Shown here: positions 28,980-36,569 of the stretch, piece after piece
Position numbering within the stretch: the first letter of the stretch is position 1
Layout: each line of letters begins with the position of its first letter
Source: Gracilimonas sp.
GTDB taxonomy: Bacteria; Bacteroidota; Rhodothermia; Balneolales; Balneolaceae
Assembly (NCBI RefSeq): GCF_040218225.1
Contig: NZ_JAVJQO010000004.1
Coordinates: 248,001 to 312,000 of the forward strand
Direction: 5' to 3'
DNA length: 64,000 nt
Notes under the pieces: model-generated
Told to the model about the DNA's origin: nothing
Database searches by the model: none
The model's input: the letters and a program-made list of their open reading frames with translations, nothing else
Program-made: the position numbers and the translations under genes

Positions 28980-29011
28980 TTGTTCAATATTTGAAAGCCT
29001 CGTATCTTTAC
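28980..29011 (+). promoter_or_regulatory. Bacteroidota-type promoter for the thiamin receptor gene
   Basis: TTTG at 28980-28983, a 20-nt spacer and TATCTTTA at 29004-29011. This follows the published Bacteroidota pattern TTTG-N19/21-TAnnTTTG apart from the last base. Transcription would begin a few bases before the riboswitch, the expected place. Two small palindromes (ATTCAATGTTGAAT, 28961-28974; TTCAATATTTGAA, 28985-28997) overlap it. Confidence 0.55.
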
Positions 29012-29022
29012 AGCTCACAACC

Positions 29023-29104
29023 AAGGTTGGGGGTGCTTGCATAGCGGGCTGAGATTACACCCTGATACCTGAACCGGATAATACCGGCGTAGGGAAACCT
29101 GTTT
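29023..29104 (+). ncRNA. TPP (thiamin pyrophosphate) riboswitch, THI element
   Basis: The conserved THI-box blocks appear in order: GGGGTGC near 29031, GGCTGAGA at about 29048-29055, ACACCCTGATACCTGAACC at 29058-29076 and CCGGATAATACCGGCGTAGG starting at 29076. AGGTT near 29024 and AACCT near 29097 can close helix P1. It ends about 58 nt before the ATG of the TonB receptor gene. TPP binding by this element normally lowers expression, so the receptor should be made when thiamin is scarce. A hairpin hiding the ribosome-binding site follows (29130-29158). Confidence 0.95.
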
Positions 29105-29129
29105 ACCGCACAGTTACGCAAGTTAACCT

Positions 29130-29161
29130 CCTCCATTAATCTAAGTTTTAAATGGAGGATT
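29130..29161 (+). promoter_or_regulatory. ribosome-binding-site sequestering hairpin of the TPP riboswitch
   Basis: CCTCCATT (29130-29137) pairs perfectly with AATGGAGG (29151-29158), leaving a 13-nt loop. The GGAGG ribosome-binding site lies inside the right arm, three bases before the ATG at 29162. This is a likely expression platform acting on translation. AACCT at 29125-29129 repeats the P1 3' strand at 29097 and could compete for the same 5' partner. Confidence 0.65.
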
Positions 29162-31612
29162 ATGTTTAATCTATTCTTACAGAAGTCGTTTTTTGCGGCT
29201 TTATTATTCACTATACCATTATTCTTTAATGCTGAAGTTCAGGCACAAACCGTTACCGGAAAAGTGCTTGATGCGCAATCCAAAGAACCGTTACAAGGAG
29301 CTGCGGTTCGGCAACAAGGCACATCCCGGGGAGCCGTAACCCAGGACGATGGCTCCTTTGAATTACAGCTTTCCCAAAACGGAGAAGAAGCTTTACTCAT
29401 CACTTATCTGGGATATAAAGACCAGGAAGTGGATGTATCTGATGACAAACAGAATCTGGAGATATTCCTGTATCCCGAAACGTACATCGGCGATGACGTT
29501 TTTGTTAGCGCCGTTCGGGTGGATGAGTCTTCCCCGATCACCTATACCAATGTAGAACGGGCCGAAATTGAGAAAAGAAACCTCGGACAGAATGTTCCCT
29601 ATCTCCTTCAAAATACGCCCTCGGTAACCACAACCTCTGATGCCGGGGCGGGCGTTGGGTACACCGGAATTCGAATTCGTGGCGTCGATCCCGCGCGAAT
29701 TAATGTAACCATCAACGGAATACCCGTTAATGATGCCGAATCTCATGGTGTTTTTTGGGTTGACTTGCCCGACCTGGCTTCATCTATAGAAAACATACAA
29801 GTGCAGCGCGGAGTGGGAACTTCCACCAACGGAGCAGGTGCTTTTGGAGCCACCATCAACCTGCAAACCAGCTCTTCATCCCCGGAACCATTTGGAGAAA
29901 TAAACACGGGCTTTGGCTCCTTCAACACCCGTAAGTACAATGTAAGGCTGGGGTCAGGCCTTATGGAAAATGGCTGGCAGTTTGAAGGCCGGCTTTCGAA
30001 AATTGATTCCGATGGTTACATAGACCGGGCCAGCTCAGATTTAGATTCTTATTTCTTATCCGCATCGCACCATGGTGAACGTAGCTTGTTAAGAGCTGAT
30101 GTCTTTACCGGAAAAGAAATCACCTATCAATCCTGGTACGGCGTGGAAGAAAGCGTGCTCGAAAACGACCGCACCTTCAACGAAGCCGGAACCGAAAAAG
30201 ACGGCGATCCTTACGAGAATCAGGTAGATGATTATCAGCAAAATTATTATCAGCTGCACTACTCTTACCAGCTTCAGGAAAACTGGAATGCCAATATTTC
30301 AGCGTTCTACACCCGGGGTTTTGGTTATTATGAAGAGTATAAGGCTGACGAAGCTCTTAGCGATTATGGTATAGAGACCATTCAGCCATCTACGCCTACT
30401 GAATCTGATTTGGTTCGCCGCCGCTGGTTAGATAATGATTACTACGGCACCATCTTTTCCACCAAATATAGTCCTTCAGATACCTGGAACCTGACATTTG
30501 GCGGAGGGTACAGCTACTACGATGGTGCCCATTTCGGAGAAGTTATTTGGGCTCGATATGCCGGAAACAGCGAAAACAACGATCGTTATTATGACAACGA
30601 TGGAATCAAGAAAGACTTTAATGCATATGGCAAGCTTCAGTATCAACTCACCGAAAAGCTGAATTCTTACCTGGATCTTCAGGTGCGCTCGGTAAACTAC
30701 GAGTTTCTTGGCAACGACATCATCCAAACCGGAAATCCTCCAAACGTTCAGGATAGTCTGGTTACACTTCGCCAGGAAGACAACCTAACCTTCTTCAATC
30801 CAAAGTTTGGATTGGTTTATAACTTCACTTCAGGTCAGCGGGCTTATGCTTCTTTTGGCGTCGGTGGAAAAGAGCCAACTCGTGATGAATACGTAAATTC
30901 TACACCTGATAGTCGTCCTGATGCCGAAAAACTCTACAATGTTGAAGCCGGATATCGAGGTGATTTCACCACCTATTATCTAGGAGCAAATCTTTACGGG
31001 ATGTTTTATGAAGATCAGCTGGTGCCAACAGGAGCCATCAACGACGTTGGCGAGATTGTACGTCAAAATGTGCCTGAGAGCTATCGTGTAGGAGTTGAAC
31101 TTCAGGGTGGGGTGAGTCTCGGCCAAAACCTGAGCCTTTCAGCCAATGCAACGTTCAGTCAGAATAAAATTGTGGAATACACGCAATACACTGATCAGTA
31201 CGACGCCAATTTCAACTTTCTTGGCCAGCAAGAAACCATTTACGAAGACACCGATATTGCTTTCTCTCCTTCTGTAATCACAAACGGAGTGATTGGCTAT
31301 AACAAAGGTGGCTTAAATGCAGAATTGATTTCAAAATATGTGTCCCGGCAGTATCTGGATAACACCCAAACTCAAAGCCGATCGATAGACCCTTATTTCG
31401 TAAATGATCTTCGGCTAAGCTACAAGCTTGATCAGGTTCCTGTACTCGAGGGGATCACGGCAACACTACAGGTAAATAACCTTTTCAATCATGAGTACGA
31501 AACCAATGGATACACCTTTGGCTGGCTGCAAAGCGGAGATCCTGTGTACTTCAATTATTACTACCCACAGGCCGGAACCAATTTCCTCTTCCAGGTTAAG
31601 TGGGAGTTCTAA
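29162..31612 (+). CDS. TonB-dependent outer-membrane receptor, predicted thiamin transporter
   Basis: 816 residues. Signal peptide MFNLFLQKSFFAALLFTIPL.. with cleavage near EVQAQ. Residues about 30-110 are a carboxypeptidase-regulatory-like beta-sandwich (TVTGKVLDAQSKEPLQGAAV), then a TonB plug (about 135-235: VPYLLQNTPSVTTTSDAG, GIRIRGVDPARINVTINGIP), then a 22-strand-type barrel ending in aromatic F (FLFQVKWEF). The TPP riboswitch directly upstream makes a thiamin or thiamin-related substrate the best prediction; this links the receptor to thiamin by regulation, not by its own sequence. No inner-membrane thiamin transporter or thi genes are in the window. Confidence 0.92.
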   Translation: MFNLFLQKSFFAALLFTIPLFFNAEVQAQTVTGKVLDAQSKEPLQGAAVRQQGTSRGAVTQDDGSFELQLSQNGEEALLITYLGYKDQEVDVSDDKQNLEIFLYPETYIGDDVFVSAVRVDESSPITYTNVERAEIEKRNLGQNVPYLLQNTPSVTTTSDAGAGVGYTGIRIRGVDPARINVTINGIPVNDAESHGVFWVDLPDLASSIENIQVQRGVGTSTNGAGAFGATINLQTSSSSPEPFGEINTGFGSFNTRKYNVRLGSGLMENGWQFEGRLSKIDSDGYIDRASSDLDSYFLSASHHGERSLLRADVFTGKEITYQSWYGVEESVLENDRTFNEAGTEKDGDPYENQVDDYQQNYYQLHYSYQLQENWNANISAFYTRGFGYYEEYKADEALSDYGIETIQPSTPTESDLVRRRWLDNDYYGTIFSTKYSPSDTWNLTFGGGYSYYDGAHFGEVIWARYAGNSENNDRYYDNDGIKKDFNAYGKLQYQLTEKLNSYLDLQVRSVNYEFLGNDIIQTGNPPNVQDSLVTLRQEDNLTFFNPKFGLVYNFTSGQRAYASFGVGGKEPTRDEYVNSTPDSRPDAEKLYNVEAGYRGDFTTYYLGANLYGMFYEDQLVPTGAINDVGEIVRQNVPESYRVGVELQGGVSLGQNLSLSANATFSQNKIVEYTQYTDQYDANFNFLGQQETIYEDTDIAFSPSVITNGVIGYNKGGLNAELISKYVSRQYLDNTQTQSRSIDPYFVNDLRLSYKLDQVPVLEGITATLQVNNLFNHEYETNGYTFGWLQSGDPVYFNYYYPQAGTNFLFQVKWEF

Positions 31613-31650
31613 TACAAGAGTTTAGTTAGACAAGACGTTTAACCTTCCAG

Positions 31651-31684
31651 AGCCCTCAATGTGAAAGTTGAGGGCTTTATTATT
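31651..31684 (+). terminator. terminator after the TonB receptor gene
   Basis: 9-bp stem AGCCCTCAA (31651-31659) with TTGAGGGCT (31668-31676), 8-nt loop, followed by TTATTATTT. The T-run is broken, so it may be of medium strength. Confidence 0.7.
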
Positions 31685-31715: not shown

Positions 31716-32672
31716 CTACTTCAAATTATCCTGAATATGACTCGCAATTTGCTCAGCATGCACCCGGGAATTCTCAATAAATAACCGACTGGTGTCCATT
31801 CCTCCGCAAACAACACCGGCTACATAAATCCCTTTCCGGCTCGTTTCAAGGCTGTTTTCATCATGAACAGGCATACATTTTTCATCGTCGGTAAGCTCAA
31901 TTCCCAGACTATCCATCAGCTCATAATTAGGATGGTAACCTGTCATAGCGAGAACGAAATCATTCTCTATCGTCACTTCTCCATCAGGAGTGTTAATGAC
32001 CACTTCTTTCTCCCGGATTTCTTTCACCTCCGAATTGAAAAAACAGGGGATTTCTTCATTCTTAATCCGATTCTCAATATCCGGCTTTACCCAGTATTTT
32101 ACCGAGGGCTTAATTTGATCGTACTTCAGCAACATCGTGACGTCTGCGCCCCCTCTCCAGCATTCGAGGGCAACATCTGCCCCAGAGTTTCCACCGCCAA
32201 TCACCAGCACTTTTTGCCATGCATAGGGATGTGGTTCATCGTAATAATGCTTCACTTTGGGAAGATCTTCTCCCGGAACGCCCATCATGTTGGCCTGACC
32301 ATAGAACCCGGAAGCAACGATCACCTTTTCCGCTTTGTATACATCTTTGTCTGTTTTAACGGTGAAATTGCCATCCTCTCCCTCCATCGACTCTACCGTT
32401 TCATACAGGTTGACGGGAAGCTCATAATGCTCCGCCACCCGGCGATAATATTCCAAAGCTTCTGCCCGGGTTGGTTTTGGCCCGTGAGAAATGAAAGGCA
32501 CATTCCCAATTTCAAGTTTATCAGAAGTGGAGAAGAAGGTCATGTTGGTCGGATAATGGAATAGCGAATTCACCAAACAACCTCGTTCAATGATTTTAAA
32601 AGGGATGTTTTTCTCCTGAAGTGCAATACCCGTGGCAAGCCCGATCGGACCTGCACCTATAATGATAACCAT
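31716..32672 (-). CDS. ypdA: YpdA-family bacillithiol disulfide reductase
   Basis: FAD- and NADPH-dependent reductase proposed and in some Firmicutes shown to reduce bacillithiol disulfide. 318 residues. FAD-binding IIGAGPIGLATGIALQ at 3-18, then the YpdA-typical stretch GCLVNSLFHYPTNMTFFSTS with its conserved cysteine, and the NADPH site VIGGGNSGADVALECWRGG near 172. C-terminal GIYVAGVVCGGMDTSRLFIE is typical. It lacks the CxxC of thioredoxin reductases, as YpdA does. It stands alone between the receptor terminator and a divergent DUF481 gene. Bacillithiol use is inferred; no bsh genes are in the window. Confidence 0.87.
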   Translation of the reverse strand: MVIIIGAGPIGLATGIALQEKNIPFKIIERGCLVNSLFHYPTNMTFFSTSDKLEIGNVPFISHGPKPTRAEALEYYRRVAEHYELPVNLYETVESMEGEDGNFTVKTDKDVYKAEKVIVASGFYGQANMMGVPGEDLPKVKHYYDEPHPYAWQKVLVIGGGNSGADVALECWRGGADVTMLLKYDQIKPSVKYWVKPDIENRIKNEEIPCFFNSEVKEIREKEVVINTPDGEVTIENDFVLAMTGYHPNYELMDSLGIELTDDEKCMPVHDENSLETSRKGIYVAGVVCGGMDTSRLFIENSRVHAEQIASHIQDNLK

Positions 32673-35633: not shown

Positions 35634-36569
35634 CTACTTCGGTTCCAGATACTGAAGGCTGAACCAATTGTTTTCATCGGTCCATACTTTCTTTACCTCA
35701 AACCAGGGCGATACAATTTCTGAAAATTCATCCAGCGTGTATTTATGCGAGTTTTCGGTATGAATGCGTTCTCCTTCTTCAAAGGCAATAGTTGTACCAT
35801 TAATCGCCACTTCATGGGCTTCATTACAAATCAAATACATTTCAATGCGACCTTCCTCTTCATTCCAAACAGCCTCATGGTCAAACCTGGAAAGGGAAAA
35901 ATCAGACGCTAAAATCCGGTTTATATGACGCAGTATATTTTTGTTGAATGCAGCTGTTATGCCTTTGGAATCATTATAGGCATCCAGCAAAACCTGCCGG
36001 TCTTTTTTTAGATCAACACCAATCAGAAAAGCGCCAGTCTGACTTGCAATATCAGCAACTACGTTTAAAAACCGGTCTACCGTATCCCGCTCAAAATTCC
36101 CTACCGTTGAGCCGGGAAAAAACACTACTCTTCTTCCATCAGGCATCACTTCCAGAAGTTCGAAGGATCGGGTATAGTCTGCCTGCAGAGGCTCAATCTT
36201 AATTTCAGGAAATTCATTTTGTAACTCATTAGCCACGTTAAATAAATACTCTCCGGAAATATCGATGGGTACATAAGCCGATACGTTAGACAGGTTTTCC
36301 AACAGGATGCGGGTTTTATCACTGCTCCCACTCCCCGGCTCAATCAGTACTACTTTTTCTCCCAAATACTGTCCAATACTCTCTACGTTTTGTTTAAGAA
36401 TCTTACGCTCAGTCCTTGTTGGATAGTATTCTTCCAGTTGGGTTATTTCATCAAATAATTTTGATCCGCGCTCATCATAGAAGTATTTACTCGGTAATGA
36501 TTTTTGAGGATCGTTCAATCCGCCCAGCACTTCCTCAAGCATGGACTTCCGCTGTTCAACTTTAGTCAT
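35634..36569 (-). CDS. egtD: L-histidine N-alpha-methyltransferase, ergothioneine synthesis
   Basis: Makes hercynine (trimethylhistidine) from histidine with three SAM. 311 residues, usual for EgtD. SPSKYFYDERGSKLFDEIT-like opening (LPSKYFYDERGSKLFDEIT, about 24-42), YYPTRTE at about 48-54, the SAM-binding EPGSGSSDKT at about 77-86 and FFPGSTVGNFE near 150. It follows egtB in the same direction with a gap of about 78 nt, so both are probably one transcript in the order egtB-egtD. No egtA or egtC is seen. Confidence 0.93.
   Translation of the reverse strand: MTKVEQRKSMLEEVLGGLNDPQKSLPSKYFYDERGSKLFDEITQLEEYYPTRTERKILKQNVESIGQYLGEKVVLIEPGSGSSDKTRILLENLSNVSAYVPIDISGEYLFNVANELQNEFPEIKIEPLQADYTRSFELLEVMPDGRRVVFFPGSTVGNFERDTVDRFLNVVADIASQTGAFLIGVDLKKDRQVLLDAYNDSKGITAAFNKNILRHINRILASDFSLSRFDHEAVWNEEEGRIEMYLICNEAHEVAINGTTIAFEEGERIHTENSHKYTLDEFSEIVSPWFEVKKVWTDENNWFSLQYLEPK

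Follow-up and report, generated by a model that had tools for sequence, protein, structure and literature searches.

How a TPP riboswitch could govern the gene of an outer-membrane receptor is the question raised by one locus in the window, the 64,000-nucleotide stretch of a Gracilimonas genome analyzed here. The sensor type is already known and well conserved, and the mode of TPP control in the phylum now becomes testable. In Bacteroides, the TonB receptor OMthi (BT2390) is TPP-regulated and was implicated in thiamin uptake by gene deletion, and how TPP riboswitches act in Bacteroidetes is called uncertain in the cited part of that work (PMC5613172). OMthi and the window receptor are alike in being TonB receptors behind a TPP riboswitch; for the window element, a specific platform can be proposed. 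The family Balneolaceae is assigned to the phylum Balneolota in the NCBI taxonomy, and a literature search found no paper combining riboswitches and Balneolaceae. The relevant features of the locus are the following.

28980-29010, plus strand: predicted Bacteroidota-type promoter (TTG at 28980-28982, N20, TATCTTTA at 29003-29010).
29019-29112, plus strand: TPP riboswitch aptamer (THI element; RF00059 covariance match; P1 5' strand 29024-29028, P1 3' strand 29096-29100).
29025-29045, plus strand: aptamer 5' strand (5' strands of P1/P2/P3), predicted ligand-free anti-sequestor partner of 29113-29134 in the fold of the transcript cut at 29150.
29113-29134, plus strand: predicted anti-sequestor 3' strand in the linker, GCAAGTTAACCTCCTCC plus a 5' extension (from transcript folds and linker/aptamer matching).
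29130-29158, plus strand: sequestor hairpin (arms 29130-29137 and 29151-29158, exact 8 bp; conserved in the family with matched arms).
29154-29158, plus strand: GGAGG (Shine-Dalgarno-like), 3 nt 5' of the receptor ATG at 29162.
29162-31612, plus strand: gene of a TonB-dependent receptor of 816 amino acids with a carboxypeptidase-regulatory-like domain, a plug and a beta-barrel (PF13715, PF07715, and PF00593 above cut-off).
31649-31678, plus strand: terminator-like hairpin after the receptor gene (one found; shuffles of the region average 3.2, weak evidence when taken alone).

The THI-box element of the original prediction, which had been made from the sequence alone, was recovered by a covariance scan: the aptamer matches RF00059 with 69.2 bits (gathering threshold 54.3; E = 1.6e-11) over all 105 model positions, and it is the single RF00059 match in the whole genome (3.54 Mb, 98.56% complete). 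With its full-length match above the curated cut-off, its conserved core and its location 5' of a predicted transport gene it resembles other members of the TPP riboswitch family, but it differs from a typical RF00059 member in being a short form without a long P3a. Further downstream, CCTCCATT (29130-29137) and AATGGAGG (29151-29158) pair exactly over 8 bp around a 13-nt loop, and the anticipated perfect hairpin hiding GGAGG three bases before the ATG is thus present. Two details of the original prediction had to be adjusted. The Bacteroidota-style promoter with its N20 spacing and TATCTTTA was retained, but its upstream element reads CTTG and not TTTG; the assignment of positions 28980-29010 is a prediction from sequence and relies on what is presumably the promoter consensus of this group. 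The linker does contain a second AACCT at 29125-29129, but the copy in the P1 3' strand occupies 29096-29100 and does not begin at 29097.

The target of the element, predicted to be a TonB receptor, carries the three receptor domains listed above. Both flanking genes, encoding an M28 peptidase upstream and a YpdA-like protein downstream, are antiparallel to it, and the terminator-like hairpin 3' of the gene suggests a one-gene transcript; these two features make it probable that no gene besides that of the receptor is controlled. Its likely substrate was approached through the thiamin genes. ThiC had no match in the genome. The genome's only matches to PF02581 and PF05690 fell on the same stretch and below cut-off; this stretch was rejected as ThiE or ThiG because it encodes a HisF-type protein (best match Pfam His_biosynth, 83.5 bits), and ThiE and ThiG were therefore counted as absent. 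A PnuC/PnuT-type transporter gene (202 bits) is located elsewhere in the genome, beside and convergent with a thiamin pyrophosphokinase gene containing both TPK domains. Lack of ThiC, ThiE and ThiG combined with transporter and TPK is the gene set expected of an auxotroph that imports and phosphorylates thiamin, and the organism is predicted to be one. Among the matches listed, the 80 best relatives of the receptor from named genomes included 57 with a THI-like motif in the 900 nt preceding the gene, and all six such loci tested with Rfam were confirmed. The proposal that thiamin is the substrate was strengthened by this gene set and these relatives, and the window receptor is predicted to be an outer-membrane thiamin receptor, with genome content bearing on transport indirectly. 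What would otherwise be a generic receptor thereby gains a predicted substrate, in an organism predicted to be a thiamin auxotroph. Genes for a YpdA-type bacillithiol disulfide reductase (31716-32672) and an EgtD-type histidine methyltransferase (35634-36569) were found near each other in the window.

Conservation of the leader was examined in 92 Balneolaceae genomes, 85 of which had an RF00059 match. They contained 139 TPP sites including that of the window: 85 sites (in 82 genomes) precede a homolog of the window receptor and 54 do not. TAnnTTT occurred in the 40 nt preceding the aptamer at 70 of the 85 receptor-linked sites, and 52 of these 70 had a TTG 17-23 nt further upstream, mostly at 20. 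The layout CCTCC...GGAGG-ATG was detected at 79 of the 85 receptor-linked sites, as compared to none of the 54 other sites and 8 of 1,700 shuffles. The six misses comprised L005, L056, L120, and L138, which lack such a hairpin, L009, and L076, whose arms are too far apart. For fold analyses a set of 80 hairpin leaders was used, which includes L076 and excludes L005 and L056 (whose AAGGA sites are weak and which have no CCUCC hairpin) as well as L009, L120, and L138 (no hairpin to score); all five excluded leaders still count as misses among the 85. The Shine-Dalgarno-like site was paired with P > 0.8 in 79 of 82 scored leaders by local folding and in 74 of 82 by full-leader folding. Beside a fixed core the arm sequences vary by genus while pairing is kept (ATT/AAT, TCAAT/ATTGA, TCTTAT/ATAAGA), and when arms were swapped among 18 genus representatives, the own combinations (-9.83) were better than all 400 permutations (mean -7.86, sd 0.49). 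Conservation across the family with co-varying arms shows that the hairpin is under selection. Column-by-column covariation (MAFFT alignment A2, 62 hairpins) had been tried and was abandoned in favor of arm swapping, as genera differ in their pairing register; seven long leaders are absent from the reference list, and L046 is absent from alignment A2 as well. In L009 (G089, 1501-1597), which has no hairpin, the ATG follows the aptamer immediately and the GGAGG of the aptamer itself would take the place of an RBS-like site. Both hairpin-type control and control with the RBS inside the aptamer are described for TPP riboswitches in the part of Barrick and Breaker (2007; PMC2258182) cited here; direct attenuation of the latter type resembles L009, but not the window leader and the 79 sites with a separate hairpin.

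In the full-length leader of the window, GGAGG is paired with a probability of 0.99-1.0 in the ligand-free as well as the aptamer-enforced fold. The original prediction had named an open GGAGG in the ligand-bound fold as evidence against itself; with the aptamer enforced, GGAGG was found paired at probability 1.0. Opening GGAGG in the ligand-free full-length leader costs 8.5 kcal/mol in the window and a median of 6.4 in the 80 leaders (model energies for 37 C that include neither pseudoknots nor ligand terms). An equilibrium switch in the full-length leader was rejected on these energies, which keep GGAGG closed with and without ligand, and because the ligand-free fold is closed too, a co-transcriptional mechanism is needed. 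Folding of successively longer transcripts revealed a change of partners: in transcripts ending at 29132-29153, the strand 29128-29132 is captured by the aptamer 5' strand (P 0.71-0.79), and at transcript end 29158 the GGAGG hairpin replaces this capture (P 0.94). The nascent helix predicted for the transcript cut at 29150 pairs 29025-26 with 29133-34, 29029-34 with 29126-31, 29035-40 with 29118-23, and 29042-45 with 29113-16, the best register being GGGGGT (29029-29034) with ACCTCC (29126-29131). That two folds compete for the aptamer 5' strand, as suggested from the AACCT repeat, is consistent with this result, but the competing partner is mainly the 5' strand of P2/P3 and not the repeat; the AGGTT/AACCT (29125) pairing, considered as the main competing helix, was not chosen in the nascent-transcript fold. 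When transcripts stop short of GGAGG, all 80 hairpin leaders have the anti-SD strand paired to their own aptamer at P > 0.5, and capture by the own aptamer (mean P 0.72) exceeds that by non-receptor aptamers (mean P 0.30; 12 random ones each) in 80 of 80.

These folds are consistent with the following model. At low TPP, the aptamer 5' strand (GGUUGGGGGUGCUUGC) would capture the linker GCAAGUUAACCUCCUCC as it emerges from the polymerase; capture would break the aptamer and keep the CCUCC strand from GGAGG, so that GGAGG and AUG would emerge free and receptor would be made. At sufficient TPP, the bound aptamer would retain its 5' strand in P1/P2, leaving the CCUCCAUU strand free to pair with AAUGGAGG once the latter is transcribed, and the start site would be closed. 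The receptor made at low TPP would take up thiamin across the outer membrane of a cell predicted to be unable to make it. On the basis of this modeling the element is quite probably a TPP OFF-switch on translation start that is set during transcription. Aptamer and hairpin, their conservation and matched variation, the lack of ThiC, ThiE and ThiG, and the predicted dependence of the fold on transcript length are computed results, whereas TPP binding, the direction and size of its effect, ribosomal use of GGAGG, and the substrate are inferred.

By analogy, the element would belong to the known thiC-type sequestor/anti-sequestor kind of translational control, because its nascent anti-P1 helix and its full-length sequestor behave like those of E. 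coli thiC. According to the cited part of PMC5234074, an anti-P1 stem forms in the nascent thiC complex and excludes the sequestor, and the ligand-free full-length thiC RNA favors the RBS-sequestering stem. The window element resembles thiC, thiM, and tbpA in that anti-P1 helix and RBS-sequestering stem exclude each other, and thiC in that the sequestor wins in the (here predicted) ligand-free full-length fold. A hidden RBS-like site and a nascent alternative pairing are both predicted for the window leader; an RBS open at equilibrium in the ligand-free full-length RNA was not found there, and since thiC likewise favors the sequestering stem, an open site is no strict requirement for this kind. 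In E. coli thiC and tbpA, TPP is sensed mainly during transcription, as stated in the cited part of PMC11487190 and as proposed here for the window element. Unlike the three E. coli switches, the window element precedes a TonB receptor gene, its captured strand reaches through P2 into P3, and it occurs in a lineage with few Shine-Dalgarno sites.

Control could alternatively be exerted on transcription, with the hairpin being or feeding a terminator or a Rho entry window and the mRNA level as output. Such coupling has precedents, as translational closure in E. coli thiC and tbpA is linked to lower mRNA (PMC11487190 and PMC5234074, in the parts cited), and a T6 run follows 30 of the 54 other TPP sites of the family at a distance of up to 200 nt. 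However, a T6 run accompanies only 11 of the 85 receptor-linked leaders, no terminator-like site was found in the window leader, and the window hairpin is followed by ATTATGTTTAA without a T run. The mRNA level of the B. thetaiotaomicron transport operons was unchanged with thiamin, as given in the part of PMC5613172 considered, which fits translational control. Transcriptional control of the window receptor is thus unlikely, whereas transcriptional platforms appear to be used for other genes in the Balneolaceae, as suggested by the T6 runs at non-receptor sites and by L002, a non-receptor TPP site with a clear terminator shape.

Variation of aptamers and linkers across the family bears on the proposed co-transcriptional OFF-switch. 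Receptor-linked aptamers occur in two variants, TTGGGGGT with GTAGGG/GAAGGG or TTAGGGGT with GGAGG, and two capture solutions were found: TTGGGGGT aptamers capture via the 5' strand, and most TTAGGGGT aptamers mainly via GGAGG in the aptamer 3' part. Exceptions among the TTAGGGGT type are L006 and L102, which use mainly the 5' strand, and several g19 loci that use both. The motif GGAGGAAAA is present at 18 of the 85 receptor-linked sites, as compared to 0 of the 54 others. L003, L060, L094, L113, and other TTAGGGGT-type loci have GGAGGAAAA and not GTAGGGAAA in the aptamer 3' part; this Shine-Dalgarno-like copy would, by prediction, retain the CCTCC strand as long as the RNA is nascent. Matching extends beyond the core: in the 80 leaders, TGCTTGC in the aptamer and GCAAG in the linker occur both in 30, neither in 48, the linker motif alone in 2, and the aptamer motif alone in none, although few independent events may lie behind this association because leaders are inherited as blocks. 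Chimeras of linkers with other aptamers still gave a capture of 0.16-0.39, and in class-by-class swaps the matched classes were highest, with other receptor-linked classes close behind, which indicates genuine tuning with a generic component. Some generic capture results from the ability of any CCUCC to pair with the GGGG of TPP aptamers. For 32 G-type representatives the mean duplex energy was -16.2 with own and -14.9 with swapped linkers; since this difference is slight and several genera do less well than their swaps, duplex energy by itself is weak evidence. The 80 hairpin leaders nevertheless offer a concrete, testable TPP platform with matched variation for the Bacteroidota.

The same variation bears on the notion that the hairpin is a constant brake which the aptamer no longer switches. 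Closure of GGAGG in both full-length states would agree with a fixed hairpin, but in the family the aptamer is intact across the full 105-position model and the linker matches the aptamer 5' strand in a lineage-specific way, and a constant brake is very improbable.

In Bacteroidia the anti-SD is occluded and ribosomes work without use of the Shine-Dalgarno sequence, such sites being rare except for long ones at rpsU (PMC9976891, in the portion cited). Translation of the window receptor could be controlled although GGAGG is not read, with the anti-SD occluded as in Bacteroidia, the hairpin burying the start region, and GGAGG retained for its obligatory pairing with the CCUCC toggle strand. GGAGG precedes just 2 of the 50 scored ORFs of the window (ORF starts uncurated), and the rpsU leader of the genome contains GAAAGGATGTGATAC, nearly the full complement of the 16S tail; as rpsU carries this extended Shine-Dalgarno-like stretch, anti-SD occlusion may apply in the window genome. 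A long Shine-Dalgarno-like stretch precedes rpsU in six of the eight genomes searched and is missing in L277 and L280; the stretch is GAAAGGATGTGATAC or GAAAGGAAGTGAGGC in L273-L276, L278, and L279, as in Bacteroidia according to the cited part of PMC9976891. Leaders from outside the Balneolaceae point in the same direction: GGAG or AGGAG occurs near the start in only 3 of 48 scored TPP leaders, of which 36 keep a hairpin with a C-rich loop, compared to 98 of 960 shuffles. On the other hand, 66 of 74 scored relatives keep a narrow distance of 3-5 nt from GGAGG to ATG, which argues for a site that ribosomes use, and the 16S tail, read from the genomes of five relatives as the window assembly had no 16S match, is the standard CACCTCCT. 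An unread GGAGG is somewhat less probable than not, and its use by the ribosome is presumed here. A lineage whose ribosomes may largely ignore Shine-Dalgarno sequences poses the sharp question of whether GGAGG is read or serves as pairing partner only.

In the non-Balneolaceae leaders (L177-L245; 48 scored), GGAGG is absent near the start and the loops of the hairpins contain CCCCT or similar motifs, often in a GGTAAAC...GTTTAAC frame. CCCCT is complementary to the AGGGG of the aptamer. As a lead, the C-rich strand that meets the aptamer may be the older part, to which GGAGG was added in the Balneolaceae.

A tree of 84 receptors calculated by a quick method contained two deep clades, F1 (64 rows including the window) and F3 (20 rows), with two long-branched rows, L009 and L138, of unsure placement. 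The riboswitch class tracks the genus but the receptor clade does not, F1 and F3 both being found in g1, g2, g3, g5, and g10. In six Fodinibius-type (g3) genomes, either an F3 (G018, G019, G009) or an F1 receptor (G013, G014, G020) is located between the same neighbors. G019 and G020 share 97% identity in the leader, 83% over codons 1-25, 51% over codons 26-125, 31% between the mature proteins, and 86% in the 3' flank; their DNA similarity breaks off roughly 27 codons into the gene (+259) and returns at the stop codon (2470). Leaders are shared between clades also in g5 (84%) and g10 (80%), where neighbors are partly shared, and in g1 (87%), together with one downstream gene. For g3, the simplest reading of these sequences is in-place exchange by recombination. 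Differential loss from an ancestor that had both genes, a state still present in G062, G075, and G076, is a less simple but plausible alternative. In these genomes (L052/L120 in G062, L036/L056 in G075, and L038/L005 in G076) each gene has its own TPP site; L005, L056, and L120 are the second, clade F3 copies without a GGAGG hairpin, while the F1 copies there have one. On balance, riboswitch and signal peptide appear somewhat more probable than otherwise to form a fixed dock for exchanged thiamin receptors, in which recombination would swap the receptor and keep its control. A literature search yielded no account of receptors being exchanged behind a riboswitch. The exchange is perhaps driven by phages or toxins that exploit the receptor, or by a change in the form of thiamin taken up, and receptor exchange behind a constant riboswitch constitutes a natural experiment on the drivers of receptor turnover. 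Pairs of exchanged receptors with about 31% identity behind a shared type of riboswitch and signal peptide are L153 and L157 (G019 and G020), L148 and the window receptor, L162 and L163, and L164 and L165.
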